Part shown: positions 367-21,641 of the stretch, piece after piece
Layout: the number at the start of each line of letters is the position of its first letter
Position numbering within the stretch: the first letter of the stretch is position 1
Origin: Pseudomonadota bacterium
Lineage (GTDB): Bacteria; Myxococcota_A; UBA796; GCA-2862545
Reading direction: 5' to 3'
DNA length: 45,724 bases
NCBI GenBank assembly: GCA_023954855.1
Contig: JAGSGY010000041.1
Location: 1-45,724, forward strand
Notes under the pieces: model-generated
The model's input: the letters and a program-made list of their open reading frames with translations, nothing else
What the model was told of the DNA's origin: nothing
The model's database searches: none
Program-made: the position numbers and the translations under genes

Positions 367-1335
367 TTAGGGAATCAACACGACCTTGCCCACCGTCTTG
401 CGGGCTTCCATGTCCGCGAGCGCTTGGGCCCCGTCGGCGAGGGCGACTTCGGTGGGGGCTTCCGGAAGCACGACACCCTGGGCGATGAGGCTGACCATCT
501 CGGTCCACTGGCGCGCGAACAGGTCGGGGCGCTTCTGCATCATCACCGTCAAGTGGTAGCCGATGATCTCGACCGGGCGGAAGATGATCTGCACGTTGCC
601 GATGTTCGCCTGCTCGTGGGTCGCCGCGCCGTAGACGACCATCCGGCCGTAGGGACGCAGCGCCCGCAAGTTCTCGCGGAAGGTCTCACCGCCCACCATC
701 TCGAGAATGAGGTCCATGCGGTCACCCTGGGTGATCTCGCGGCAGCGCTCGGCGAAGTTCTCGGTCTGGTAGTTGATGGCGTGGTCGGCGCCGAGCGCAC
801 GAACGCGCTCGCACTTGGCTTCAGAGCCCGCGGTCCCAATGACGAAGGCGCCAAAGTGCTTAGCCAAGCGCACGGCGGCCGACCCGACGCCACCTGCCGC
901 AGCGTGAATCAACACATTGTCGCCTGCTTCGACACGCCCGACGGTGCGCAGGCACGCGTGTGCGGTGAGCCACTGCACGGGAAACGCGGCGGCCTGGGCA
1001 TCCGTCCACGGGTCGGGGGTCGGAAACACGCTGTTGGTGCGCCAACACACGTACTCGGAGAATGCAGCCGGCCCCATTCCCATGACGCGTGTGCCCACCG
1101 GGATCGGGCTGTCTGGGCCCGCGGCCGTGACGGTGCCGGCCATCTCGAGGCCCCCGACGTACGGCCCCTCTGGGCCGCCAGGGTACAGCCCGTGAGTCTG
1201 CGCCACGTCGGCGTAGTTGATGCCCGCTGCGCCGACCTTGACAACGACCTGGTCGCCCGTTGGCGTGGGCATGTCGCGCTCTGCGATGCGGGCGACACCG
1301 GGACCTTCGAGGGTGGGGACTTCGAGAACGCGCAT
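367..1335 (-). CDS. Zn-independent quinone oxidoreductase-like MDR family enzyme
   Basis: A 322-residue medium-chain dehydrogenase/reductase close to NADPH:quinone oxidoreductase (QOR). Visible features are the N-terminal GroES-like half (INYADVAQTHGLYPGG), the cofactor motif HAAAGGVGSAAV of the Rossmann fold, and the family phrase GADHAINY. The catalytic zinc ligands of true alcohol dehydrogenases are not evident, which fits QOR. The open frame extends to 1386, but I start at ATG 1335 because GGAGGT sits four bases before it. It reduces quinones or enals with NADPH in the cytoplasm by family analogy; the substrate cannot be read from sequence. The gene diverges from the membrane protein at 1433. 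Confidence 0.92.
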   Translation of the reverse strand: MRVLEVPTLEGPGVARIAERDMPTPTGDQVVVKVGAAGINYADVAQTHGLYPGGPEGPYVGGLEMAGTVTAAGPDSPIPVGTRVMGMGPAAFSEYVCWRTNSVFPTPDPWTDAQAAAFPVQWLTAHACLRTVGRVEAGDNVLIHAAAGGVGSAAVRLAKHFGAFVIGTAGSEAKCERVRALGADHAINYQTENFAERCREITQGDRMDLILEMVGGETFRENLRALRPYGRMVVYGAATHEQANIGNVQIIFRPVEIIGYHLTVMMQKRPDLFARQWTEMVSLIAQGVVLPEAPTEVALADGAQALADMEARKTVGKVVLIP

Positions 1336-1421
1336 GGGACCTCCAGGGCGGTTCATGGCCCGTCTTGCGCGGTCGTGCACGTGCATCCGTGGGTGAGCGC
1401 GGCTTTCGGCGACGCTCGGGG

Positions 1422-1427
1422 TAGTCT
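1422..1427 (+). promoter_or_regulatory. Possible -10 box (TAGTCT) for a leaderless transcript
   Basis: TAGTCT lies five bases before the GTG start at 1433, and no Shine-Dalgarno sequence precedes that start. The geometry would place the transcription start at or near the start codon. No convincing -35 box is present 17 bases upstream, so this is only suggestive. Confidence 0.25.
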
Positions 1428-1432
1428 GCGGC

Positions 1433-2836
1433 GTGACCCACTCTCGCGATCTTCTCGGCGTGTACTTGCTCGCGGTCCTCGTGCATCTCGGCTGGGTGCT
1501 TCAGGTGCCCGCGCCCACCGATATCGATCCGTCCTACTACGCGCTCGTCGCTCGGCACATCGCGGCGGGAGAGGGTGCGGTGACCACGGCCGCTTGGCAG
1601 CTGCTCGAGGTTCCCGAGGGCCTTCCTGCACCCGCGGACCTGTACTGGATGCCGCTCCCGAGCCGGGTGCTCGTTCCCTTCGTGTGGCTGTGGCCCAGCT
1701 GGGGTGCGCAGATCGCGACCGCACTGATCGGTGCGCTGTGGGCACCTCTTGCCTTCGCGCTGGCTCAGCAGCTCGGTGGGGAGCGCTGGACCCGGGTGGG
1801 TGCCGCGGCGCTGGCCACGTGGGCTCCCGGATTTCTGCGCCGGATGGACACGCCGGACTCCATTGCGCTCTACGGTGCGGTGGCTGGGGCCGCGTTCCTC
1901 GCCGCGAGTCGCGAGCGCTGGAAGGCCGCCACCCTGCTCGTCATCCTCGCTGCGTTGACCCGCAATGATGGCCTGCTGCTCGCCCCGTGCATCGCGCTGA
2001 GCTTCTCGGGATGGCGCCTGCTCGTCGTCGCGCTCTCCGGGCCGCTCGCCTCTGCGCTGTGGACGGCCCGAAGCGCCGGTCTGGCAGGCCCCAACTACCT
2101 CGAGGCGAGGTCCACCATTGGCCAGCTTGCGGACAAGGCCGGATTGCTCGGCGCCGAGCCCGAGACGATGGCCTTGTCGGAGCGAGCGGTGTTCTTGGCG
2201 ACTGACGGGGTGGGGGTCTTGCTGGTGATCTGGCTCGTCGCGCTGCCTTTGCCGGGCGTGCTTGCCTTCTTCGCGTTGCGCAAGCACCGCGTCATGCGCG
2301 CGGGCCTCGCCTACGCGTACGCGATGCCGGTCTTCGCGGTCATGGCGGCCCCTGCGGTGGCCACGTACGGCAGCCTGTACCGAAGCAGCTCGGCGCTGGT
2401 GCCTCTGGCTGCGGCGGCTTCCGCGCTTGGCCTGGCTGCACTCGGCCGCTGGGCCCACGAGCGCTTCACTCTTGAGCCAGCCATCGCGCCCCTCATTGTC
2501 GCGGGCACATGGACCGCGGTGATCTCGCTCGCCGTTCCGCTGGCTCCTCCACCGCCGACACCCCTCGGTGAGGCAGAGTGCGCGCTGCTCGCCGAGACGT
2601 CGGGCGTGGTGTTCTCGGCGGATCCGCTCTTCGCCGCCGAGCGCTGCGGAGTGCAGTCAGTGCTCCACTCCGGTCACCAACGGCCGGACCAGCGGGCGGC
2701 GCTCGCCGAGCACTTCGACATCGAGTGGGCCCTCGCTCCGCGGGAGGACGACACGCGCTCGTTCATCGTGCAAGGCCCTGACGAGGGATGGACCGAGGTG
2801 CATCCCAGGCTCTGGCGGCGTCAGCCGACCCAGTAG
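1433..2836 (+). CDS. Multi-pass membrane protein, GT-C (PMT/ArnT-like) glycosyltransferase
   Basis: 467 residues with about nine hydrophobic helices. After the first helix an acidic motif (Asp30, Asp32, followed by PSYYALVARHI) lies where GT-C glycosyltransferases carry their catalytic Asp in the first extracytoplasmic loop. The phrase LAALTRNDGLLL in the middle resembles the LTRPEG motif of GT39/GT83 proteins. A soluble region of about 90 residues ends the protein. Such enzymes use polyprenyl-phosphate sugars to glycosylate lipids or proteins outside the membrane; donor and acceptor are unknown here. The start is GTG. The 3' end overlaps the convergent gene at 2821 by 16 bases. The family is likely but not certain. 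Confidence 0.7.
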   Translation: MTHSRDLLGVYLLAVLVHLGWVLQVPAPTDIDPSYYALVARHIAAGEGAVTTAAWQLLEVPEGLPAPADLYWMPLPSRVLVPFVWLWPSWGAQIATALIGALWAPLAFALAQQLGGERWTRVGAAALATWAPGFLRRMDTPDSIALYGAVAGAAFLAASRERWKAATLLVILAALTRNDGLLLAPCIALSFSGWRLLVVALSGPLASALWTARSAGLAGPNYLEARSTIGQLADKAGLLGAEPETMALSERAVFLATDGVGVLLVIWLVALPLPGVLAFFALRKHRVMRAGLAYAYAMPVFAVMAAPAVATYGSLYRSSSALVPLAAAASALGLAALGRWAHERFTLEPAIAPLIVAGTWTAVISLAVPLAPPPPTPLGEAECALLAETSGVVFSADPLFAAERCGVQSVLHSGHQRPDQRAALAEHFDIEWALAPREDDTRSFIVQGPDEGWTEVHPRLWRRQPTQ

Positions 2837-3957
2837 TGGGACAGGTACCGAAGCAGGAAGATCACCTGCATGGCGAAGCCCAAGCTGACGACGAGCATGT
2901 AGGTGGTCCACGGCTGCTCGGCCTCGGGTTCAAGGGCGTCTGCGGCGACCCAGAACACGGGAAACAGCACCGCCAAGTACCGCGTGAACGCCATGAAGCC
3001 GACGCCTGAGACCGAGACCCAGCCGAGTGCAGCGGTCCACAAGAAGGCGACGCGGTCGCGCTTGTACAGAGGCACCAACGCGAGTGCCCATACGACGAAG
3101 AACAAGCGGTCCAACGCCGAGCCGGTCACCCCGTGCAGCCCGTCGACGGCGAACATCGCGCGGAAGAAGCGGGGCAGGTCGACGAGTGCCATGGGCGAGG
3201 AGTTGTTGATGAACAACTTCTGGGCCTCGAATCCCGTCCAGGCCGAGCCGGTGAGGGCAGCCATGGTCGCGAGGTAGGCGCCAAATCCCGCCACGGCGCC
3301 GAGGGGTGCGATCCAGGCGCGCCGGTCTCGGGACTTCCAGGCCGCCCATGCGAGGGGCACCACCGCGAACAAGCCGACGGCGCGGGTGAGGGCAAGCAGC
3401 ACCGCGAGCAGACCGACGCCTACCCAGTGCTTGCGGTCGACAAGCAGGAAGAGCCCTGCGCTGAGCAGCAGGAAGAGCGACTCGCTGTAGGCCAGGCCGA
3501 AGAACAGGGCGCCTGGGAAGGCGGCGAAGAGCAAGATGAAGCGGTCTGCGCGGTCCGGGCCACCGCGCAGGGCCGCCCAGCGATGCAACAGGACAAGAGC
3601 CCCGCCAAAGAAGAGGTGCGCGCTGAGCAGGGCCGCGACGAGTGGGTCTCCGAGCACGGTGCTGACGGCGCCGATCACCGCGGGCCAGAGTGGATAGAAG
3701 GCGGCGGCGTTGGTGCCGGCCTCGTAGCCGTCGGTGGCCAGGCTCAGGTAGTGGTGTGCATCCCACGTCGAGAGCTGCGTGCGCAGATCGATGGCCGTGA
3801 TCGCGCGGCCGTTGGCTTCGGCCGACCCGGTGTGGAACTGCAGGGGCACCCAGTGCTCGCTGGTCGTCGCCACGAACATGAGAAAGGCGCGAAAGACGAG
3901 CAGTGCGCCTGCGGGTCCGAGGCTTCTCGACCACGGCAGTGGGGCGGGTTGGCTCAT
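2821..3957 (-). CDS. PIG-V-like mannosyltransferase family membrane protein
   Basis: 378 residues, about ten hydrophobic segments. Residues 65-90 hold the arrangement WDAHHYLSLATDGY followed by AAFYPLWP, the signature of bacterial PIG-V-like mannosyltransferases (GT-C fold). The Asp of WDAHHY is the presumed catalytic residue. These proteins transfer a mannose-type sugar from a polyprenyl carrier on the outer side of the cytoplasmic membrane. The open frame runs upstream to 4323, but this would overlap the signal peptide of the next gene, so I start at ATG 3957, just before the first membrane helix. It is convergent and overlapping with another GT-C-like gene, so two glycan enzymes sit back to back. 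Confidence 0.85.
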   Translation of the reverse strand: MSQPAPLPWSRSLGPAGALLVFRAFLMFVATTSEHWVPLQFHTGSAEANGRAITAIDLRTQLSTWDAHHYLSLATDGYEAGTNAAAFYPLWPAVIGAVSTVLGDPLVAALLSAHLFFGGALVLLHRWAALRGGPDRADRFILLFAAFPGALFFGLAYSESLFLLLSAGLFLLVDRKHWVGVGLLAVLLALTRAVGLFAVVPLAWAAWKSRDRRAWIAPLGAVAGFGAYLATMAALTGSAWTGFEAQKLFINNSSPMALVDLPRFFRAMFAVDGLHGVTGSALDRLFFVVWALALVPLYKRDRVAFLWTAALGWVSVSGVGFMAFTRYLAVLFPVFWVAADALEPEAEQPWTTYMLVVSLGFAMQVIFLLRYLSHYWVG

Positions 3958-4032
3958 GCGAGGGGACCTTAGCATCTGCCACTTGATCTCCGCCCAAGCT
4001 CGGGGCACTTTGGGGGACGCTCTGGAGGCTCC

Positions 4033-5391
4033 GTGCCACGAATGCTCGCGCTCACTTCCCTGGTTCTGTTCTCTGCCTGTGGCGAGGTGCCCGAGCCTGT
4101 GGAGTCTTCGATTCTCGCAAGCCACGACGACTCCGGCGTCACCCTGATGCGCGTCGGGAGCGGCGGCTTTGTGGCGGGCGAGACCATCACCTTCGAGGCG
4201 AAGCTCGACGACCACGTCGATGCGAGCAGTCTCCAGTGGACGGTGAGCGACGGCGAGCTCGTCGGCGACGGACTCCGCGTGCGGTGGACGCTTCCCGCGC
4301 GTGGTGGCAAGCACCAGATTCACGTGCGCACCAACGACATGGATGGCACGCCGACGTCGGCATCCTTCCAGCTCGGAGCCATGCTTGCCCGGGCCTATCC
4401 GACCGATCGGCAGGGCGAGGTCTACGTCGGGCCGTCAGCTGGCGACGTGGTTGCGAGTACCTGCGCACTCGCCTTCGATTCGAGCGACCGCCCCAGCATC
4501 GCGTTCAGCCAAGACACCCACGGACAGCTACTGCTCGCCACATTCGGCACGGCTTGGTCGATCGATTTCGTGGACGGGCCGGGCTTCGACGTGGGCTCGA
4601 CCATCTCGAACCGCTTCGACATGAAGATCGACAGCGCTGGCGCCCACCACCTTGCGTATGCCTACCACGACCGCGGCGTCTTCGACTGGGAGGTCTGGTG
4701 GGCCAGCGACCAAGGTGGCTCATGGACGCGCGAGCGGGTCAGCAACAGCTACGATCACCTGCAGTTCGCTTGGCCCAGCATCGCCCTTGACCCGAGCATA
4801 GGCGACCGTCCGGCGGTCGTGCACTCCCAGGACACCAGCTACGACTCGATGGTCGTGTCGTACCAGACGGGCCCTGGCACCTGGGTGCAGAATCGCTTCA
4901 GCGAGAGCAACTACTCCCAGTACCACACGGGCGGTGCGGCCTATCAGAGCGACGGAACCCTGTGGGCCACCAAGGGCTTGACGTCGCACGGCCACGCATC
5001 CTGGACCGAGGGCGGTGGCTGGAGCAACAACAGCTTCCAGGACTGGTCCTCGAACGCGCACATGCACGCGCAGATGATCGTCAACGACGCCGATGAGCCG
5101 GTAATGATGCATGCCAATGGGCTCGAGCACAGGGTGGGCACCAGCTGGCGACACTCCGAGATCGAGCCCTTCGAGATGGAGTACTTCGACCTGGCTTGGG
5201 GCGGCGGAAAGCCGCATGTCGCAGTCATCCACGACGGCAACCTCGAGCTGATCACCACCGATGCGGACGGCTACTGGGAGTACACGGTCATCGCGACGAA
5301 CATCGGCGACATCACGCCAGGTGTGGCCGTCGACTCCGATGGCGACCCCCACGTCTGCTACCAGAAGGCCGACGGGCTTTACTACTACTGA
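4033..5391 (+). CDS. Secreted lipoprotein with Ig-like and beta-propeller-like domains
   Basis: 452 residues, starting at GTG 4033 with GGAGG six bases upstream. A signal peptide ends in LFSAC (Cys16), an imperfect lipobox. Residues 30-115 look like one Ig-like sandwich (SLQWTVSDGELVG, HQIHVRTND). The remainder, about 330 residues, consists of short repeats of the type ALDSxGxPHxAY, typical of sialidase-like or exo-alpha-type beta-propellers; no sialidase Asp-box active site is evident. The C-terminal part is clearly paralogous to that of the next gene (shared GPGFDxGS, GDRPxV, ESNYSQ, GLTSH). The two genes overlap by one base, so they are translationally coupled. Probably outer-membrane or surface; function unknown. 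Confidence 0.85.
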   Translation: MPRMLALTSLVLFSACGEVPEPVESSILASHDDSGVTLMRVGSGGFVAGETITFEAKLDDHVDASSLQWTVSDGELVGDGLRVRWTLPARGGKHQIHVRTNDMDGTPTSASFQLGAMLARAYPTDRQGEVYVGPSAGDVVASTCALAFDSSDRPSIAFSQDTHGQLLLATFGTAWSIDFVDGPGFDVGSTISNRFDMKIDSAGAHHLAYAYHDRGVFDWEVWWASDQGGSWTRERVSNSYDHLQFAWPSIALDPSIGDRPAVVHSQDTSYDSMVVSYQTGPGTWVQNRFSESNYSQYHTGGAAYQSDGTLWATKGLTSHGHASWTEGGGWSNNSFQDWSSNAHMHAQMIVNDADEPVMMHANGLEHRVGTSWRHSEIEPFEMEYFDLAWGGGKPHVAVIHDGNLELITTDADGYWEYTVIATNIGDITPGVAVDSDGDPHVCYQKADGLYYY

Positions 5392-8042
5392 TGCGTCCTT
5401 CTGATCTCGCTCGCATCGCACTGATCTGCGCCCTCTCGGGCGCGGGGCTAGCCGGCTGTGGGTGCAATCCCGAGGATGAGGTCACGGACTCTGGCGAGAC
5501 CGACACCGACACCGACGCGGACGCAGACACCGATGCCGACGCAGACACCGATGCCGACGCAGACACTGATGCCGACGCAGACACCGATGCCGACGCAGAC
5601 ACCGATGCCGACGCGGACGCGGACGCGGACACCGATGCGGATACCGACACCGATCCGAACCAGCCGCCGGTCCCCGTCATCGATGCGCCGGCGACCGCGA
5701 GTAGCTTCGACGAAGGGCAGAGCGTTCAGCTGACCGGCCATGCCGACGACCCCGAAGAGGGAGCGCTTGCAGGCTCCGCGCTGTCGTGGTCTTCGAGCTT
5801 GGACGGGGCGCTTGGAACGGGCTCTCCGCTGGACTGGACCGCGCCGAGCATCGGCACCCACGATGTCGTGCTCACGGCCATCGACTCCGGCGGACTGTCC
5901 GCGAACACCTCGATTAGCGTCGAGATCGTCGCCATCGGCGTCAACCAGGTCCCTGCCGTCACTATTGCGACTCCGGCGGACGCGAGCACGTGGACGCTGG
6001 GCGACAGCGTGAGTCTCAACGGGACGGCTACGGACCCTGAAGACGGCGCACTCACCGGGGCCTCCCTCTCGTGGAGCTCCGATGCGGACGGTGTGCTCGG
6101 TACCGGGTCCCCGTACGCTGCAACCGCCCTCACTGAGGGCGTGCACGTGCTGACCTTGGCGGCCACCGACTCCCAGAGCGCGGTAGGCACGGACAGCGTC
6201 ACGATCACCGTAAACCCCGTCGGAAACGACGCTCCCACCGCCCAAATCTCGGCGCCTGCGGACGCGGCGGCGTTCACCTCTGGTGATGCGGTGTCGCTCG
6301 AGGGCTCGGGCAGCGACCCCGAGGATGGCGCGCTCACTGGCGCTTCGCTGGAGTGGCGCTCCGATGTGGATGGCGTGCTCGGAACGGGATCTCCGCTTGT
6401 GACCTCTTCGCTCGCCGTGGGCGCGCACACCGTGACCCTCGTCGCCACAGACAGCGGGGGCTCGTCGGGCACCGACAGCATCGGCCTGACTGTGCTTCAG
6501 CCGAATGTCGCGCCGACCGTCCAGATCACCGGACCTGCCGATGGCGGGAGCTCCGATGCGGGCACCTCGGTCTCGCTTCAGGGCACGGGAACGGATCCCG
6601 AGGACGGGCCGCTCAGCGGTACGTCACTCCGCTGGAGCTCGGATCTCGACGGGGTGTTGGGCACCGGCTCGCCCCTTGCCACCAGCTCGTTGAGCGAGGG
6701 CATGCACACGGTCACGCTGACCGGCACCGACGGTGGTGGACTCGTCGGCACCGACAGCATCACGTGGACCGTCGACCCGGTGGTCGTGAACCTGCCTCCC
6801 GTGGCCGTCATCACAGGACCGTCCCGCACCAACGTCGATGCCATCGTGGCCTTCGATGGGTCGTCCTCCTACGATCCCGACGGGAGCGTGGTGAACTACC
6901 GCTTCTCCATCGATGACGGCTCGTCCGATGTCGACGGCGCGAGCACCAACATCACCCACAGCTTCGGCGCAACCGGGGGCTACACCGTCACGCTCACGGT
7001 CACAGACGACGGCGGGCTGACCGGTGTGACCAGCCAGAACATCACGGTTGGAACGCCGGTCGAGGTGCCCAGCGTGGTGGTCGACGAGGACCTTCCCCTC
7101 GGCAGCTACTGCGACGTAGCGCTCGACTCGGGTGGAGAGCCCCACCTGATCTTCCGCGAGAGCGCGCATGGGCGCCTGCTCTACGCGAGTCGGGAGACGG
7201 GGTCTTGGGTCGTCCAGCGCGTGGATGGCCCCGGTTTCGACATCGGCTCGGTAGTCGGCGAGCTTCCAGGCCGCCTGGTCGTCGACTCTGCCGGCATCGT
7301 GCATGTGGCCTACGCCTACGGCGACGACCGCTACCAGCCCCGCTACGCCAAGCTCGACTCGGGCATCTGGACGCTCGAGCGGGTGGGCAGCAGCAGCCAG
7401 TCGTTCATCACCACGGGCGTGGGCATCGGCCTGGATCCGGTGAATGGGGACCGGCCGACGGTGGCGTGGGCCGAGGACCGCTCCTACGACACCATCGGTC
7501 TGGCCTACCAGACCGCACCCGACACGTGGACGACCACCTACGCCCCCGAGAGCAACTACTCGCAGCACTTTACCGGCGGATTTGCATTCGCGGATGACGG
7601 GACTGCGTGGCTCTCACAGGGACTGACCTCGCACGCGATTCGGCCGTGGTCGGCCATCGATGGCTGGGGGAGCAAGCGCTACGCCGCCTACTCGTCGAAC
7701 GCTGGGTACATCGCTCCGCTCGCGCTGGACTCGGTCGGAAACCCGGTTCTCGCCCACAACGAAGGCCTGAGCCACTACCTCGGATCGAGCTTCACGCCCG
7801 AGGGCATCATCCCCGAGGAACAGCTGTTCTTCGACGTCGGCGTGGGTCCGGGTGACGTTGCCTGGCTGCTGACGCAGCGTGCTGGGCAGGTCGAGATCCT
7901 CACCGCTCCGCTCGGTGGCTTCTACGAGATGGCCTACGAGGGCCCGATGGATGACGCTTGGCCTGGTGTCGAGGTCGGCGACGATGGCAGGCTCTACGCC
8001 TGCTTCTTCCGCGACGGGAATCTGGTCTACTTCGGACCCTAG
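5391..8042 (+). CDS. Large lipoprotein: Asp-rich linker, five Ig/PKD domains, beta-propeller
   Basis: 883 residues. ATG 5391 shares its A with the previous stop codon. Signal peptide with lipobox LAGC (Cys23); residues 37-88 are an Asp/Thr/Ala linker; then four Ig-like repeats of about 92 residues (near 90, 185, 279 and 371) with the motif DPEDGALTGASLxWSSD and GVLGTGSP; then a PKD-like domain near 466 (SSSYDPDGSVVNYRFSIDDG); then a beta-propeller-like region from 560 paralogous to the whole C-terminus of the preceding gene. The build is that of a surface lipoprotein holding a head domain away from the membrane on a rigid stalk. The Ig repeats are close enough to have arisen by recent duplication. 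Ligand unknown. Confidence 0.9.
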   Translation: MRPSDLARIALICALSGAGLAGCGCNPEDEVTDSGETDTDTDADADTDADADTDADADTDADADTDADADTDADADADADTDADTDTDPNQPPVPVIDAPATASSFDEGQSVQLTGHADDPEEGALAGSALSWSSSLDGALGTGSPLDWTAPSIGTHDVVLTAIDSGGLSANTSISVEIVAIGVNQVPAVTIATPADASTWTLGDSVSLNGTATDPEDGALTGASLSWSSDADGVLGTGSPYAATALTEGVHVLTLAATDSQSAVGTDSVTITVNPVGNDAPTAQISAPADAAAFTSGDAVSLEGSGSDPEDGALTGASLEWRSDVDGVLGTGSPLVTSSLAVGAHTVTLVATDSGGSSGTDSIGLTVLQPNVAPTVQITGPADGGSSDAGTSVSLQGTGTDPEDGPLSGTSLRWSSDLDGVLGTGSPLATSSLSEGMHTVTLTGTDGGGLVGTDSITWTVDPVVVNLPPVAVITGPSRTNVDAIVAFDGSSSYDPDGSVVNYRFSIDDGSSDVDGASTNITHSFGATGGYTVTLTVTDDGGLTGVTSQNITVGTPVEVPSVVVDEDLPLGSYCDVALDSGGEPHLIFRESAHGRLLYASRETGSWVVQRVDGPGFDIGSVVGELPGRLVVDSAGIVHVAYAYGDDRYQPRYAKLDSGIWTLERVGSSSQSFITTGVGIGLDPVNGDRPTVAWAEDRSYDTIGLAYQTAPDTWTTTYAPESNYSQHFTGGFAFADDGTAWLSQGLTSHAIRPWSAIDGWGSKRYAAYSSNAGYIAPLALDSVGNPVLAHNEGLSHYLGSSFTPEGIIPEEQLFFDVGVGPGDVAWLLTQRAGQVEILTAPLGGFYEMAYEGPMDDAWPGVEVGDDGRLYACFFRDGNLVYFGP
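5499..5654 (+). repeat. 18-bp tandem repeat coding the Asp-Thr-Asp-Ala linker
   Basis: The linker codons form near-identical 18-base units (GACGCAGACACCGATGCC type) repeated about five times, flanked by shorter variants. Slipped-strand change in units of 6 or 18 bases would lengthen or shorten the linker without changing frame. Confidence 0.9.
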
Positions 8043-8050
8043 GAGGTCGC

Positions 8051-8887
8051 TTGGACCTGGGACTCAACGGACGCGTGGTGCTCGTGACCGGCGCATCAGG
8101 AGGCATTGGTGAGGCCATGGTCTCTGCCTTTGCCGCGGAGGGCGCGACGGTCGTGGCTCAAGGCCATACGCGCTTCGACACGCTTAAGACGAGGTTCGAG
8201 GGCACTGCCGTCGTGCCGTGGCGGGCTGACCTCTCGTCGGTGTCCGACGTAGACGCGCTGTTCGATGGGGTTGCCGAGCGCTTCGGGCGCATTGACGTGC
8301 TCGCTGCCAATGCCGGCCGCTGGCCGCTCCCCAACCTGCGCCTTCACGAGACGCCGGTCGACGACATCGAGGCCACGCTCTCTGACAACCTACGGTCGGC
8401 CATTCTGTCGGCGCGTGCGTTCATGCGGGTGCTTGCGCAGACGGGCCCAGACGCCATGGGGCATGGCGCGAGCGTCGTGCTGACGGGCTCGACCGCAGGG
8501 CGCTTCGGTGAAGCGGGTCACGCGGCCTATGCGGTGGCCAAGGCCGGATTGCTCGGACTCGCGCGGACCCTCAAGAACGAGCTGCCGACGCTCGATCCCT
8601 GGGCGCGCATCAACGTGGTCGAGCCGGGCTGGACGGCCACGCCGAGGGTTCGCAAGGGCCTCGCCGACCCGACGGGCGCCCAGAAGGCCGCCCAAACCAT
8701 GGCACTGCGCCAGCTTGCCCGGTGCGAGGACATCGCTCGCACCGCGGTCTTCCTGTCGAGCCCGACCGCGGCACGCCACATCACCGGCGAGGTGCTCACC
8801 GTGGCCGGCGGCATGGAGGGAAGGCGCCTCTGGGACCCGGAAGAGGTCGATGTCGACCTGCTGAGACGCCGTCTCGACGCGGACTAG
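8051..8887 (+). CDS. Short-chain dehydrogenase/reductase (SDR)
   Basis: 278 residues of the classical SDR fold. The NAD(P)-binding motif TGASGGIG lies at 13-20, NAG at 87-89, and the catalytic Ser147, Tyr160 and Lys164 (YAVAK) are all present, so it should be active. PGWTATP and the C-terminal GEVLTVAGG are also standard. I chose TTG 8051, which has AGGAGG four bases upstream and gives a normal N-terminus; it begins only eight bases after the lipoprotein gene and is probably cotranscribed. The substrate cannot be inferred, and a cytoplasmic oxidoreductase in an operon with two surface lipoproteins is an odd pairing. It ends three bases from the convergent channel gene. Confidence 0.93.
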   Translation: MDLGLNGRVVLVTGASGGIGEAMVSAFAAEGATVVAQGHTRFDTLKTRFEGTAVVPWRADLSSVSDVDALFDGVAERFGRIDVLAANAGRWPLPNLRLHETPVDDIEATLSDNLRSAILSARAFMRVLAQTGPDAMGHGASVVLTGSTAGRFGEAGHAAYAVAKAGLLGLARTLKNELPTLDPWARINVVEPGWTATPRVRKGLADPTGAQKAAQTMALRQLARCEDIARTAVFLSSPTAARHITGEVLTVAGGMEGRRLWDPEEVDVDLLRRRLDAD

Positions 8888-8890
8888 CTT

Positions 8891-9715
8891 CTACTCGAGC
8901 TCTTCACCCGGCATGAGCTGCTCGCCACAATGAGGACAGAAGCCGAAGACGTCGGCGTCCTTGCCTCGTTTCTGCTCGCGAATCTCTTCGTTGAAGCCGG
9001 CCGCGAGGATGCCTGTCGGCAGCGCGACGAAGCCCACGCCGACCATCGAGACGATGGCGCCCACGAAGCGGCCCATCCCGCTGGTGGGGTACACGTCGCC
9101 GTAGCCCACGCTGGTGAGGGTGATGACCGACCACCACATGGACGCAGGGATGCTGCGAAACGCCTCGGGCTGGGTGGTGTGCTCGACGAAGTAGATGAGC
9201 GAAGAGGACATGGTGAGGAGCAGGACTAGGACCAGCCAGGTCATGGCCAGCTCTTCTTTCTTGCGCGAGATGACGTTGGTCAGCGTCCGCACTGCGTGGG
9301 CGTAGCGGCCCATCTTGAGGATGCGGACGAGTCGAAGCAGGCGGATGGCGCGCAGGATGCGCAGGTCCATCGTGATCAAGAAGGGCAGGTAGAAGGGCAG
9401 AATCGCGACCAGGTCCACGAGGGCCATGATCGAGACCATGTACCGAAGCCGACCGCGGATGCCGCCCTTGTAGGCGTCGTCGAGGTTGCAGATCCACAGT
9501 CGAGCCACGTACTCGACGGTGAAGAACAGAGACGAGAAGGTGTCGAAGACCATGAACCAGGAGTGGTACGCGGTCGCGTATTCGGGCTCGGTCTCCATCA
9601 TGACTGCGATGACGTTTGCCGCAATCAGCGAGATGATGAACGTGTCCATCGCCTTGTTGTCGTCGTCGCCGGGATTCAAGATCCGGTCGACGCGCACCTT
9701 CCAACTCTCAGCCAA
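8891..9715 (-). CDS. Voltage-gated potassium channel with C-terminal CxxC motif
   Basis: 274 residues with six-helix Kv architecture: S1-S3, an S4 voltage sensor with regularly spaced arginines (RILRAIRLLRLVRILK, residues 119-134), S5, pore loop with the selectivity filter TSVGYGD (201-207), and S6. It conducts K+ across the cytoplasmic membrane and opens with voltage by family analogy. The last 20 residues carry CPHCG (260-264), half of a zinc-ribbon, which could bind zinc between subunits of the tetramer. The start is TTG 9715 with AGGAGGAG upstream. It is a single gene between a convergent SDR and a same-strand exported protein. Confidence 0.95.
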   Translation of the reverse strand: MAESWKVRVDRILNPGDDDNKAMDTFIISLIAANVIAVMMETEPEYATAYHSWFMVFDTFSSLFFTVEYVARLWICNLDDAYKGGIRGRLRYMVSIMALVDLVAILPFYLPFLITMDLRILRAIRLLRLVRILKMGRYAHAVRTLTNVISRKKEELAMTWLVLVLLLTMSSSLIYFVEHTTQPEAFRSIPASMWWSVITLTSVGYGDVYPTSGMGRFVGAIVSMVGVGFVALPTGILAAGFNEEIREQKRGKDADVFGFCPHCGEQLMPGEELE

Positions 9716-9762
9716 CCGCTCCTCCTGGGGCGGAGGTTACCCCAGGTGGCCGAGCGTCGACG

Positions 9763-10809
9763 CTAGCGCGACTGCCATCCGTCGTGGTCGTAGGCGACCG
9801 TCGGCTTTCCTTCCTCGATGCCGAGGGTGACGAGGCCGGACACTCCGGTCTCAAGGGTGCCAGAGGTGTAGGGCTCCTCCTCCATGAACTCGCGGACCTC
9901 GATCGTGTGCCTTCCGGGGGAGATCTGAACACTTTCTTCGTCGGAGTTGCGGATCTCGAGCACCACCTTGCCGTCCACGAGCACGTCGGCCCATTCTCCA
10001 TCGCGCGATCGCACCCGGAGCGTCACTTCATCGGGCACGACGGCGGCCGGTGCAGCGGGCGTCCACGAGAAGCTTTCGACCCGGAGACTTGCGCTCGCGA
10101 GGTCCATCTCTTCGATGACGACGGCGGTGGTCGACATCTCGTTGGGGCGGCCTACGCTGGGCACCCCTTGGCCGCCTCCGGTGAGCCAGCCGCGGCTATC
10201 GTAGAAGGTGACCTTCTTGTCCTCGGACACCCCGACGGTCAGGACCTCGGCCAGTCGGGTATCGATCTGCCCGGTGGCCCAGCCCCGGTCGCTCATGAAG
10301 TCGCGGAACTCCAGGGTGTGGCGACCTGGCGTGATGCGAACCCGGCCTTCTGGGCTGTTGCGCAGCTCCATGACGACGAGACCGTCGACCACCACATCCG
10401 TCCAGGTTCCGCCGGTGGCGCGGACAACGAGGTCCACGAACTCAGGGACCGGCGTGGGAGTCCGCTCGATCAAGACGATTCCGAACGGTCGGCTTCCGGC
10501 CGTCGGGGTCACCTCTGGTTGGTGAATCGCCAGCGCCTGGGGACAGTCGAATGCCCGGTTCGTCCAGGTGCAGCGCACCTCATAGCCGGAGGGCACGTCG
10601 ACGAGCCCGGTGTACAGCACCCTACCGTGTGGGCTGATGACGCGAACCTCCCGGCGGCCGGGCTCGGTGTCTCCAACCGTCGTGTTCGGTTCCTCGGCCT
10701 CACGGGCCCAACGCACGCCGTCGACCTCGATGTACACGCCGTGGTCCGAGTCCACCCTGAGTGAGGCATCGGCGGCGGACGCGGTGCTGAGTGCGAGGAG
10801 CAGGAACAT
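9763..10809 (-). CDS. Exported protein with duplicated PEGA-like domains
   Basis: 348 residues starting at ATG 10809 (GGAGAA upstream); the open frame reaches 10962 but the signal peptide MFLLLALSTASA marks the true start. Two modules of about 85 residues (124-208 and 261-346) are clear duplicates: W(T/A)DVxVDGxVVxExRNS, then (I/V)xISPGRHTxExR(D/E)FM, then a Gly-Trp end. The N-terminal part (16-75) has a weaker third copy. The pattern beta-strand, VDG, PGRHTIEV resembles PEGA domains, which are common in myxobacterial envelope proteins. No catalytic motif is seen; it is probably a periplasmic or surface binding protein. It lies 47 bases downstream of the channel start on the same strand, facing away from the gene at 10889. 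Confidence 0.82.
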   Translation of the reverse strand: MFLLLALSTASAADASLRVDSDHGVYIEVDGVRWAREAEEPNTTVGDTEPGRREVRVISPHGRVLYTGLVDVPSGYEVRCTWTNRAFDCPQALAIHQPEVTPTAGSRPFGIVLIERTPTPVPEFVDLVVRATGGTWTDVVVDGLVVMELRNSPEGRVRITPGRHTLEFRDFMSDRGWATGQIDTRLAEVLTVGVSEDKKVTFYDSRGWLTGGGQGVPSVGRPNEMSTTAVVIEEMDLASASLRVESFSWTPAAPAAVVPDEVTLRVRSRDGEWADVLVDGKVVLEIRNSDEESVQISPGRHTIEVREFMEEEPYTSGTLETGVSGLVTLGIEEGKPTVAYDHDGWQSR

Positions 10810-10888
10810 GGCGGTTCTCCGACGGTGACGGTATGCCCCTTGGCCAGACGGGGCCAGGTGTCTCGTTGGGCATCTGGGAGACGCGGGA

Positions 10889-12358
10889 GTGGCTTTGCTA
10901 TTCAAGGAGCTTCGTGCGGCGGCGGCGCTAGCGAGCGGATGGCCGGTGCTGGTTGTGCCCACCGCGGGCCCTGAGGAGACGCTGCGCGAGCTCGAGGAAG
11001 TTCTTGGGCCTTTGCCCCAGGCCGAGTTGGCGGGTGATGCAGACCATCAAGAGATCTGGGTCGAGCTTCCGACGCTCGCTGCAGAGGACTGGCTCGCGGT
11101 TCGCGAGCGGCTCGGAGAGGAGGTGGAGCTGGTCTCCGGTGAGGCCCCCGGTCGTCGGGCGGCGCGTGACCTCGGTGTGCTCGTGGATGAGGTCGTGGAG
11201 GTCGATGGTCTGCGTCTGGTGCACTCGATCGACATCGAGCAGGGCCTGTCGACCTTGCCGCAGCTCGTCCCGGGACGGCCGGACCCGCAGGTGCTCGAGC
11301 TGGAGCATGACCTCGACCGCGCGCTCACCACGAGGGGCTTGCCGCGCTTTGCTTCCGATCGGGGTCCCGGAACCGTGCAGCCGATGGTGGAGCCGACGAC
11401 GGGGCGGTTTGGCGTGCTGCTCTCGTGGGGGGATGGCCCTGAGCTCGAGCCTCTGGGCACGGCGCTCTCAGCGGTGGTCGAGGCCCGGGCCGAGCACACG
11501 ACGTTGCGCATCGCTCCGGATGTCGTCGTCGACCGCCGCATGGGGCTTGGTCTCGTGCTGTGGATCGTCGCCCCCGCACGCGAGGTGATCCCATGGGACC
11601 TGGCCGTCGGAGGGATGCAGCCCCCCATCGAGGGCTTGGCTGAGCGCGTGTCGCGTCTCGGGGATGCCGCGCGCGCCCTTGAGATTCAGGTGCTTCCAGC
11701 CTCCAGTCACGTCGATGCCGCCTTGGCTGCCGCTGAGATTCTTGAAGGGCTTGAACTGCCCGTGTCGCCGGCCTCACCGCGCTGGCTGGTAGCGGAGGAC
11801 ACGCTTCGCTTCGCACCGACCTGGGCCATGGAGCTCTCCGAGGCCCCGGTCCACGACCTAGTGGGTCTCTCCCAGATTGCCGACCACCCCGCCATTGCAG
11901 CGGTGCGCGTGCTGCCGGCGGACCCGGCAGGACTCGAGAGTGAGTGGGAGGTTGTCGACCTGGGTGGCATCGCCACCGCGCACGGCTGGGCCGTGCGGCT
12001 CCGCCATGGTGTGACGGGACGCGACTTGCTTGTGCCCGTCGAAGATCGAGAGCCCGATACGCGCGATGACCAGGCAGAGGAGGCGCTCCTCGAAGCGCTG
12101 GGTGAAGCCGAGGGCGCGAGCTGGCTGATGGAGGCACGCCTCACGCGGGCGGTGCTCGATGCCACCGGTCACCACGGCCTCGAGCTGCGCATCGACCCGG
12201 TCGAGGCGCTCTCCACGGAGGCGCTGGGCCAAGCGCTTGCTGCAGCTCTCGGGGCGCCCGTGCCCGATGCGTCGTCCTTTGCGAGCTGGGGACGCCGGGG
12301 CGGTGACCTGGTGGTTCAGCTCTGGTACGCGGAGCGTGTGGTGTCCGAGCAGGGCTAG
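10889..12358 (+). CDS. Unknown acidic cytoplasmic protein
   Basis: 489 residues, GTG start at 10889 with GGGAG eight bases before. I recognise no family. There is no signal peptide or membrane helix; the protein is rich in Asp/Glu, Leu and Ala. It appears to have several alpha/beta repeats with phrases such as GVLLSWGDGPELEPLG and GLGLVLWIVAPAREV, and the ends of the protein both contain LAAA-rich helices. Codon use matches the neighbours, so recent transfer is unlikely. The stop codon is shared as CTAG with the convergent ViaA-like gene. A link to the RavA/ViaA pair is possible from position alone, but the genes are transcribed toward each other. Confidence 0.75.
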   Translation: MALLFKELRAAAALASGWPVLVVPTAGPEETLRELEEVLGPLPQAELAGDADHQEIWVELPTLAAEDWLAVRERLGEEVELVSGEAPGRRAARDLGVLVDEVVEVDGLRLVHSIDIEQGLSTLPQLVPGRPDPQVLELEHDLDRALTTRGLPRFASDRGPGTVQPMVEPTTGRFGVLLSWGDGPELEPLGTALSAVVEARAEHTTLRIAPDVVVDRRMGLGLVLWIVAPAREVIPWDLAVGGMQPPIEGLAERVSRLGDAARALEIQVLPASSHVDAALAAAEILEGLELPVSPASPRWLVAEDTLRFAPTWAMELSEAPVHDLVGLSQIADHPAIAAVRVLPADPAGLESEWEVVDLGGIATAHGWAVRLRHGVTGRDLLVPVEDREPDTRDDQAEEALLEALGEAEGASWLMEARLTRAVLDATGHHGLELRIDPVEALSTEALGQALAAALGAPVPDASSFASWGRRGGDLVVQLWYAERVVSEQG

Positions 12359-18169: not shown

Positions 18170-18877
18170 ATGCGACCGGACGCGCCTGCTACGCTGAAGC
18201 TGAAGCCGGCGCCTTCGACCGGTCGTGAGGTGGCGGTGCGTCCGAGCATTCAAGAACTCTGCGCGTGGCACCTCAACCGAGAGAACGCAGCGGTGCCGCT
18301 CCCGTCCCGGCTGCCCGAGCCCTACACGCTCGAGTTGGTGTCGGACTACGAGGAGCCGCTGTTCGGCGAGCTCATGCAGAAGGTGTTCTTCGGGGTCTCG
18401 GGCTCGCTTCGGTGGGTTGACCTCGGCTTCGAAGAGGACGCGGCTCTGCGCAGATTCCGTCGCGACCAGCTCCGGACGCGACCGTCGCTGCGGATTGCGG
18501 CGCGCTGTGATGACGCGTTGGTGGGCTGGTGCTTTGGCTTCGCGGACCGTCCCGACTCGATGTACATGGCGAGCTCTGCGGTGCTCGAGGGGCATCGGAG
18601 AGTAGGGCTGTACACCGCCATGGCCGAGCAGATGCGGGACCTCGCCATCGAGGCGGGCTTTCACCAGCTGCACAGCAAGCACCTCTGCACCAACAACGCC
18701 ATCTTGATAGCCAAGCTGCAGATGGGCTTTCAGATCGTGGGGATGGAGCTCTCGCCAGACATGGGCAGCCTGCTGAAGATGGAGCTGCCGCTTCATGCGC
18801 TTCGCGCCGACACCCTCCGTGCTCGGGCCGGCCAGACGCTGCTCAGCAAGGCGCTCAGCGCCCAGCTCACCGAGTAG
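18170..18877 (+). CDS. GNAT family N-acetyltransferase
   Basis: 235 residues. The acetyl-CoA binding region (motif A) is around 137-160: a beta strand MYMASSAVL, the loop GHRRVGLYTAM that binds the pyrophosphate, and a helix. Motif B follows as HSKHLCTNNAILIAKLQMGF, with the Asn-Asn and the Gly-Phe typical of this fold. About 55 N-terminal residues precede the fold. The start is ATG 18170 although no clear Shine-Dalgarno sequence is present; GTG 18236 is an alternative that would remove 22 residues. It sits 12 bases after the exported protein gene and three bases before the peptidase-like gene. The acetyl acceptor is unknown. Confidence 0.83.
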   Translation: MRPDAPATLKLKPAPSTGREVAVRPSIQELCAWHLNRENAAVPLPSRLPEPYTLELVSDYEEPLFGELMQKVFFGVSGSLRWVDLGFEEDAALRRFRRDQLRTRPSLRIAARCDDALVGWCFGFADRPDSMYMASSAVLEGHRRVGLYTAMAEQMRDLAIEAGFHQLHSKHLCTNNAILIAKLQMGFQIVGMELSPDMGSLLKMELPLHALRADTLRARAGQTLLSKALSAQLTE

Positions 18878-20690: not shown

Positions 20691-21641
20691 TTACGGCGCG
20701 AGCACGTGTTGACGGGTCAGGGCGCGGCCAACTTCGACCTCGACGATGGCGGTGCCGGCCGGGGCTGTGAATCGCTCACCGACGGCCTCGAACAGCACGG
20801 TTCCGTCCTCCGCGAGGGCTCGCCACTCGCGGAGCGGCTCTCCTTCGTCCCAACCTGAGGCTGGCGCCGCGAAGCCAAGACTCGACCGTGTGATCTCGGC
20901 GTCGAGAACGGGGCGCTCGCGCGCTTCGCGCAGGCGGCTTGCGCCGTAGAAGGGGACGGACAGCGTGTCATCCCGCCAGTCGCAGTGAATGTGCGTGGTG
21001 TAGACGCCGACGTAGCCGGCTCCATGGGCCGCACAGGCATCGGCCAGGGCGTCCAAGCTGACCGAGACCGGGTCGATGTCGAAGGCATCGCCGTATTGGT
21101 GTCGCGAACGGAGCGCTCCGCCGACGCCCGCGTTGTAGTCGGGGTTGCGGTAGCCCGAGTTGACGACCAGTGCGCCGAGCTCGTCCCGCAGGTCTTGAAT
21201 ACGCTCGACGGCGTGGGGCTGAACGACGGCGAATCGGCCTTTGTACAGCTGCGCGAACTCGCTCAAGATGAAGTTCGGGGCCAGCGCGGTCGACGGTTCT
21301 TCGAGCTCGAGGTCCAGGAAGGCGATGGGCTCTACATATTGGGCACTGGTGGCGCTCGGATACGCGTAGCCGCTGGGCATGGGGTTGGGTGCGCCGACCG
21401 GCAGGCACGGCGTGAAGTCTCGGTTTGGGCCGAGATAGCAGGCCTGATCGGTCTCGATCACCGTGATGTCCGTGTCGGTGTCCGCATCGGTGTCGGTGTC
21501 CGCATCGGTGTCGGTGTCGGTGTCGGCCTCGGGGCGGTCGAGCTCGCCTTCGCCCTCGAAGCCCGTGTCCACAGGGGCCTCGCGCACGTCGTTGGCGGGG
21601 ACGCAGCCGGCGAGGAACAGGGCGAGAATGGTGACGCGCAT
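20691..21641 (-). CDS. M15-family peptidase lipoprotein
   Basis: 316 residues. Lipobox LAGC (Cys13), then an Asp-Thr-Asp-Ala linker (39-59), then an M15-type zinc peptidase domain: SGYRNPDYN, the zinc motif His181-x6-Asp188 (HQYGDAFD), and HIH with His219 as third ligand. These enzymes cut D-Ala or L-Ala/D-Glu bonds in peptidoglycan stem peptides. The last 80 residues form an extra beta-rich domain. Anchored by its lipid and held off by the linker, it would act on cell wall in the periplasm, or at the surface. It lies between the PstS-OmpA gene and a small barrel gene on the same strand. Confidence 0.88.
   Translation of the reverse strand: MRVTILALFLAGCVPANDVREAPVDTGFEGEGELDRPEADTDTDTDADTDTDADTDTDITVIETDQACYLGPNRDFTPCLPVGAPNPMPSGYAYPSATSAQYVEPIAFLDLELEEPSTALAPNFILSEFAQLYKGRFAVVQPHAVERIQDLRDELGALVVNSGYRNPDYNAGVGGALRSRHQYGDAFDIDPVSVSLDALADACAAHGAGYVGVYTTHIHCDWRDDTLSVPFYGASRLREARERPVLDAEITRSSLGFAAPASGWDEGEPLREWRALAEDGTVLFEAVGERFTAPAGTAIVEVEVGRALTRQHVLAP
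21468..21524 (-). repeat. Asp-Thr-Asp-Ala linker repeat in the M15 lipoprotein
   Basis: About 57 bases of repeated GACACCGAC/GATGCG codons encode the linker. It is the same kind of repeat as at 5499-5654, in an unrelated lipoprotein. Confidence 0.85.

Follow-up and report, generated by a model that had tools for sequence, protein, structure and literature searches.

The window, that is the whole stretch of 45,724 nucleotides analysed here, carries two lipoprotein genes and an SDR gene in close succession on the forward strand. The short lipoprotein gene (4033..5391, +) starts with GTG; the in-frame ATG at 4042 was taken for the protein sequence used (P0001). It encodes a lipobox (LFSAC), one Ig-like beta-sandwich and a seven-bladed propeller head (4441..5388, +; P0001 residues 134-449). 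The long lipoprotein gene (5391..8042, +; P0002) overlaps it by one base (TGATG) and encodes a lipobox (LAGC), an Asp-rich linker built from 18-nt repeat units (5500..5660, +), a stalk of five Ig/PKD modules (5661..7060, +; four Ig-like and one PKD, as read from the repeats) and a second propeller head (7089..8039, +). A classical SDR gene (8051..8887, +; P0003) follows after eight bases, with a TTG start and AGGAGG upstream. The gene boundaries agree with the original prediction, which had described the one-base overlap, the eight-base gap and the difference between a single Ig-like domain and an Asp-rich linker followed by five Ig/PKD domains. It was also right that the two lipoproteins are paralogues with a common C-terminal head: these domains are 37% identical over 316 aa (E = 6e-59, single comparison), and the motifs GPGFDxGS, GDRPxV, ESNYSQ and GLTSH each occur in both heads of this genome. 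ESNYSQ and GLTSH are not family-wide, since the region in which they sit is specific to the lineage and the congener's pair lacks them. No third copy of the head was found in the whole genome.

Upstream the pair is flanked by a gene for a PIG-V-like mannosyltransferase (2824-3963, minus strand), and behind the SDR gene lies a gene for a voltage-gated-type ion channel (8894-9715, minus strand), which is 83% identical in the congener. A further lipoprotein is predicted at 20691-21641 (minus strand), its lipobox being followed by an Asp/Thr/Ala-rich linker. A scan for promoters and terminators gave no match, the base composition here making such a scan uninformative.

The pair recurs in related genomes. 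In the relatives set (58 genomes), the short gene has matches over all or almost all of its length in the source genome (G000), a congener (G001) and a member of another genus of the same family (G002), two in each; five other genomes contained short weak matches. A search of the phylum with a head profile added two heads each in G260 and G270, which belong to another family of the same class. This search covered 377 genomes sampled from a larger group, with five candidates scored per genome, and remote members may escape it. At E <= 1e-15, six of the 71 genomes of the class matched, five with two heads and one (G060) with a head fragment only. A scan of genome contigs returned four loci, all metagenome-assembled, on contigs of the same lengths as those of G001, G260, G270 and G060. 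For the related loci, gene calling relied on a purpose-written script based on codon-position G+C, in place of a gene finder. The order short then long holds in all five pairs, the short gene of G270 being cut by the contig end, and in G002 the two genes also overlap by one base. The fragment in G060 (L054:8643-8966, C387) is the 3'-terminal part of a long-type head, ends ACFFRSGNLMVF and adjoins a gene on the opposite strand; it is either a decayed copy or an assembly join.

Read by eye, the signal peptide ends in a lipobox Cys in each of the nine complete proteins, five of them long and four short; the truncated short protein of G270 stands outside this count. Pfam recognised the stalk of the long protein (PKD_4, E = 7.7e-26; Big_7, E = 2e-9), and PKD and Big domains exceed the cut-off in the long proteins of both the source genome and G002 (P0007). 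The sole PKD match in the short protein was below threshold (E = 0.005). AlphaFold2 gave the whole short protein as a beta-sandwich plus head, its N-terminal part being a single beta-sandwich. Long stalks align with one another over their full length at 43-67% identity and are better conserved between genomes than the long heads (28-59%). Near the place that the Asp-rich linker (5500-5660) takes in the source genus, G002, G260 and G270 have their first Ig module, and their stalks contain six modules against five in the source genus.

With an alignment of ten related heads as input, AlphaFold2 predicted the short head as 27 strands forming seven blades (mean pLDDT 87.6, pTM 0.89); the long head forms a row in the fold alignment. 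In a Foldseek search with this model PLL-type seven-bladed lectins led (6rfz, E 2.7e-10, TM-score 0.76 on the query); the matches also included propellers of glycoside hydrolases and polysaccharide lyases. The top Z-scores by VIA-align were those of CylK (29), virginiamycin B lyase (27) and Photorhabdus PLL lectins (25.7-27.1). However, Z > 22 is common to many unrelated seven-bladed propellers in that list, so these scores support the fold well but not a function. Sequence searches placed the head in no known family. On the head no Pfam family rose above its cut-off and NCBIfam gave no match, its only matches, below every cut-off, lying in the stalk and linker part of the long protein. A head profile run against PDB sequences up to E 10 found two chance-level matches, neither of them a PLL lectin or another of the propellers just named. 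No match was found in PHROGs or PADLOC, nor to the short protein in phage records. BNR_4 (PF15892, gathering cut-off 27.3 bits) reached 21.2 bits, below the cut-off, in the short protein of G260; neither P0001 nor P0002 matched it at E <= 1, and the source genome as a whole gave no match at E <= 0.01. This weak match in one relative, together with partial matches of the head to repeat proteins of the phylum, suggests from sequence likeness that the head is a distant member of a broad family of secreted repeat propellers. Structure prediction of the shared domain thus returned a confident and well-known fold, and the description of the locus as undescribed stands for the family and falls for the fold. 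Near-invariant cysteines occur at residues 8 (first strand) and 306 (last blade) of the short head and possibly form a disulphide closing the propeller; cysteine 306 is replaced by Ala in the short protein of G260.

Different parts of the head tell different histories. Heads are named here s or l for short or long, with 0, 1, 2, A and B for the source genome, G001, G002, G260 and G270; sB is the cut, half-length head at the G270 contig end. Over the whole head, short and long copies are most alike within a genome in one family (sA/lA 58% and sB/lB 56% identity, against 46% for lA/lB and 40% for sA/sB), whereas in the source genus orthologues are closer (s0/s1 54% and l0/l1 59%, against 37% for s0/l0). 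Whole-head trees group short with long in G260 and G270 with support of 98-100, and the grouping of the G002 pair is weak (69/66). Blade-wise quartets, whose winners were identical under two alignments, separate the two signals. In blades 3-5 (4753..5184, +, in the short head, with their counterpart at 7398..7829, +, in the long head), which vary between genomes and match within a genome, grouping by genome beats grouping by gene in seven of eight genome pairs (lnL difference 4.0 to 69). The sole exception is the pair of congeners, 0 and 1, where orthology wins in every blade. In blade 7, grouping by gene is best in all eight (lnL difference 1.2 to 23). Blade 7 of the short head with its preceding loop (5296..5388, +) bears a short-specific signature, H[AV]CY being present in 4/5 shorts and CFFRxGNL in the longs.

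Trees and topology tests give the same division. A tree of columns 120-285 unites sA with lA (99/99) and sB with lB (98/98), whereas a tree of the tail separates shorts from longs at 80/96, and at 97/96 for the last blade alone. AU tests reject 'all shorts together' in columns 120-285 (p 3e-6) and, in the tail, both 'sA with lA' (p 0.003) and 'sB with lB' (p 0.0005). When columns were shuffled, the change of signal along the head had p <= 0.0004 in five of six genome pairs, and p = 0.016 in pair 0/2. The heads are mosaic. Their last blade follows the gene, and blades 3-5 tend to follow the genome; this tendency is strong in one family, weak with G002 and absent between the congeners.

Within blades 3-5 the variation concentrates in particular loops. 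In general propeller topology the DA and BC loops share one face; they were assigned here from the strand order of the model, and the shared face is taken from that topology. In blades 3-5 these loops have a mean entropy of 2.04 bits, the highest of the loop classes, against 1.16 bits on the same face in blades 1-2, 1.72 in blades 6-7 and 1.47 on the other face of blades 3-5. ESNYSQ and GLTSH fall within or next to these variable loops. Short and long heads of one genome are 79% (A), 59% (B), 48% (0), 39% (1) and 24% (2) identical there, and the closest orthologues 39% (s0/s1), 32% (l0/l1) and 29% (lA/lB). Between the congeners, patterns that match within the pair and patterns that follow orthology stand at 7:5 in the loops of blades 3-5 and at 6:45 elsewhere (Fisher p 0.0015). 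In the other six genome pairs tested the loops contain no orthology pattern, but the contrast between loops and rest falls short of significance (Fisher p 0.06 to 0.55). The loop region was picked after inspection, and these loop tests are exploratory.

The SDR assignment is secure, with adh_short_C2 (PF13561) at E = 1.7e-39, both PF13561 and PF00106 far above cut-off, and the motifs TGASGGIG (Rossmann TGxxxGIG) and YAVAK (YxxxK). The original prediction had counted the SDR, its role unexplained, in a candidate envelope system and proposed a search for the three-gene order in other genomes. The short/long pair does recur, in G001, G002, G260 and G270, but the SDR accompanies it in the congener only, and since eight genes including the SDR are collinear with the window in G001, its position there says little. 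The gene after the G002 pair is on the other strand and the one after the G270 pair is convergent; the gene after the G260 pair reads from its sequence as acetyltransferase-like, its best match in the window being 18170-18877. The SDR is thus missing beside three of the five pairs (G002, G260 and G270, the last two judged from the adjacent genes), and G002, although it has the pair, contains no SDR match at E <= 1e-30. At this threshold SDR relatives are present in eight of the 58 genomes: the source genome, G001 and six that lack the head. Five of these six head-less loci were read, and in none does a neighbour from the window accompany the SDR. One of the six genomes has an SDR relative with an internal stop, an in-frame TGA (G015:C1298:14653-15432). 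An envelope system in which the SDR acts with both lipoproteins would fit the eight-base spacing, a good SDR ribosome-binding site overlapping the stop of the long gene and the same arrangement in the congener, but its absence beside three pairs and its occurrence among other neighbours in head-less genomes largely refute the SDR as a partner and make such a system extremely improbable. For the same two reasons the SDR is probably a bystander and not part of the pair.

For the two heads themselves, several histories and functions have to be weighed. The pairing of short with long in the whole-head trees of G260 and G270 could mean that each lineage made its own second head and then fused a stalk to it. 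However, the short-specific and long-specific last blades are common across families, every pair has its genes in the same order and the long stalks can be aligned from end to end; independent duplications are rejected by the last blade and the stalks, and we consider them very improbable. A far more plausible competitor is conversion without selection. Conversion between genes duplicated in tandem is frequently neutral, and it commonly affects the ends of a homologous tract less, so matching within a genome need not be selected. Neutral conversion, with ends escaping because they border unrelated sequence, would give a homogenised middle and a spared end, the pattern expected of limited tracts, and the sB/lB middle agrees at 25/32 fourfold sites (codons for the same residue), which suggests, on these silent sites, a fairly recent conversion. 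The corresponding values are 34/58 for sA/lA and, between the congeners, 19/33 for s0/s1 and 19/46 for l0/l1. Silent drift in sA/lA is thus about at the level of the congeners, yet its protein identity over columns 120-240 is 78-83%, against 32-71% between congeners. Protein matching that outlasts synonymous drift counts against a purely neutral process, as does the position of congener matching in loops of one face; numbers are small in both cases, and the comparison leans towards selection for matching of the two heads. Very recent conversion was rejected as the whole explanation on the fourfold sites, being possible as a fairly recent event in sB/lB and not in sA/lA. Neutral homogenisation overall is a serious if doubtful possibility.

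The head could also be a propeller-type enzyme (a glycoside hydrolase, a polysaccharide lyase, or CylK- or virginiamycin B lyase-like) held in a near and a far copy. Ranked by Z, the leading kinds of protein are CylK (29) and virginiamycin B lyase (27), hydrolase and lyase propellers occur among the Foldseek matches, and all or almost all of the nine full-length heads keep His27, His70, Arg123 and the GPGF loop. We regard this as unlikely: the enzyme structures matched by fold are only about 9-16% identical to the head in sequence, many unrelated propellers pass Z > 22, and variability is highest on one face, an unusual arrangement for an enzyme with a fixed substrate.

Stalked propeller lipoproteins are a known kind of protein, and the pair belongs to it; it is the evolutionary pattern that is unexpected. 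No described pair of this kind was found in the open-licence literature searched, which is not proof of absence. PLL-type lectins (Photorhabdus PLL, PLL2-5 and PHL; Chromobacterium CV39L; Burkholderia BP39L) have the same seven-bladed propeller as the head, the Photorhabdus PLL lectins aligning over 284-287 residues at Z 25.7-27.1 and rmsd 2.5-2.7. At 11-16% identity the likeness is in fold only, and a sequence profile finds none of them. Their solved chains (336-363 residues) are without room for a PKD stalk, whereas the locus here encodes two lipid-anchored stalked copies in one operon. The sugar sites of PLL-type lectins lie between the blades (PMC6943638). Closer in architecture are proteins of vitamin B12 uptake. 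BtuG proteins of Bacteroidetes carry a beta-propeller, and the BtuH head is borne on three PKD domains in BtuH2 and on none extra in BtuH1, these two being encoded at different loci and binding vitamin B12 in cobamide transport loci (PMC8941943). BtuH is the nearest printed parallel we found to one head on different stalks; the BtuH genes are unlinked, whereas the pair here is adjacent. Unlike BtuG/BtuH loci, the six neighbours scanned by Pfam within 370-12355 include no TonB-dependent receptor.

TraA has a PA14-like variable domain, and Pfam gave no PA14 match at E <= 1 in either P0001 or P0002. TraA is moreover one locus, whereas here there is a stalked pair. The TraA locus of Myxococcales is highly polymorphic, and this polymorphism sets recognition groups (PMC6372800). 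The same order and phylum also have secreted propellers built from 'DSxGxxHVxYYD' repeats (L007-L011, L032, L036), which share a repeat pattern and partial profile matches with the head, several of them also having Asp-rich linkers. However, the head is matched in part only and the last-blade signature is missing. Of this group L007-L011, all from the order, are lipoprotein-like and combine an Asp-rich linker with such a propeller, and the three of them that were scanned (L007, L008 and L010) contain MopE-type metal-binding motifs. Long-lasting concerted evolution, in which paralogues of one genome are more alike than orthologues, is reported to be rare in prokaryotes, with 26 genes (PMC6053082). 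Compared with such cases, only part of a domain is homogenised here, and one blade stays gene-specific.

Our preferred reading, held tentatively and at somewhat less than an even chance, is that the locus encodes two recognition heads, held at different heights and kept matched in specificity through recombination, and that the SDR is unrelated. The functional unit would be the two-gene pair rather than a three-gene system, with the downstream SDR as an unrelated neighbour. Both lipoproteins would most likely sit on the outer face of the outer membrane, the short head near the membrane on its single Ig domain and the long head farther out on five or six Ig/PKD modules; the different heights proposed by the original prediction are compatible with this architecture. 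From the propeller fold and the variable face we infer a role in recognition, with a glycan or other surface polymer as the most likely ligand of the head. One face of blades 3-5 would form the specificity patch, differing between genomes, and recombination between the two genes would keep this patch alike within a genome. The last blade would stay gene-specific, perhaps fitting its own stalk or partner. The pair could thereby present one specificity at two distances, to a presumed advantage. The evolutionary case for this rests on five pairs.

A further possibility, which we think improbable, is self-recognition: the variable face of blades 3-5 might dock onto its counterpart on the partner head, a long protein on one cell contacting a short one on its neighbour; alternatively, both heads might bind a strain-specific polymer of their own kind. 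Recombination would then have to keep the heads matched while lineages diverge, and the two genes would make up a system for allorecognition or adhesion whose lock and key are held together by concerted evolution. If instead the reading of two matched recognition heads is correct, the pair would be a compact case of recombination matching two receptors while one face diversifies and one blade remains private. This reading would place the ligand at the DA and BC loops in blades 3-5 and would predict which swaps change specificity. For the reading of operons the locus holds a caution, in that an enzyme gene only eight bases downstream can be a bystander.
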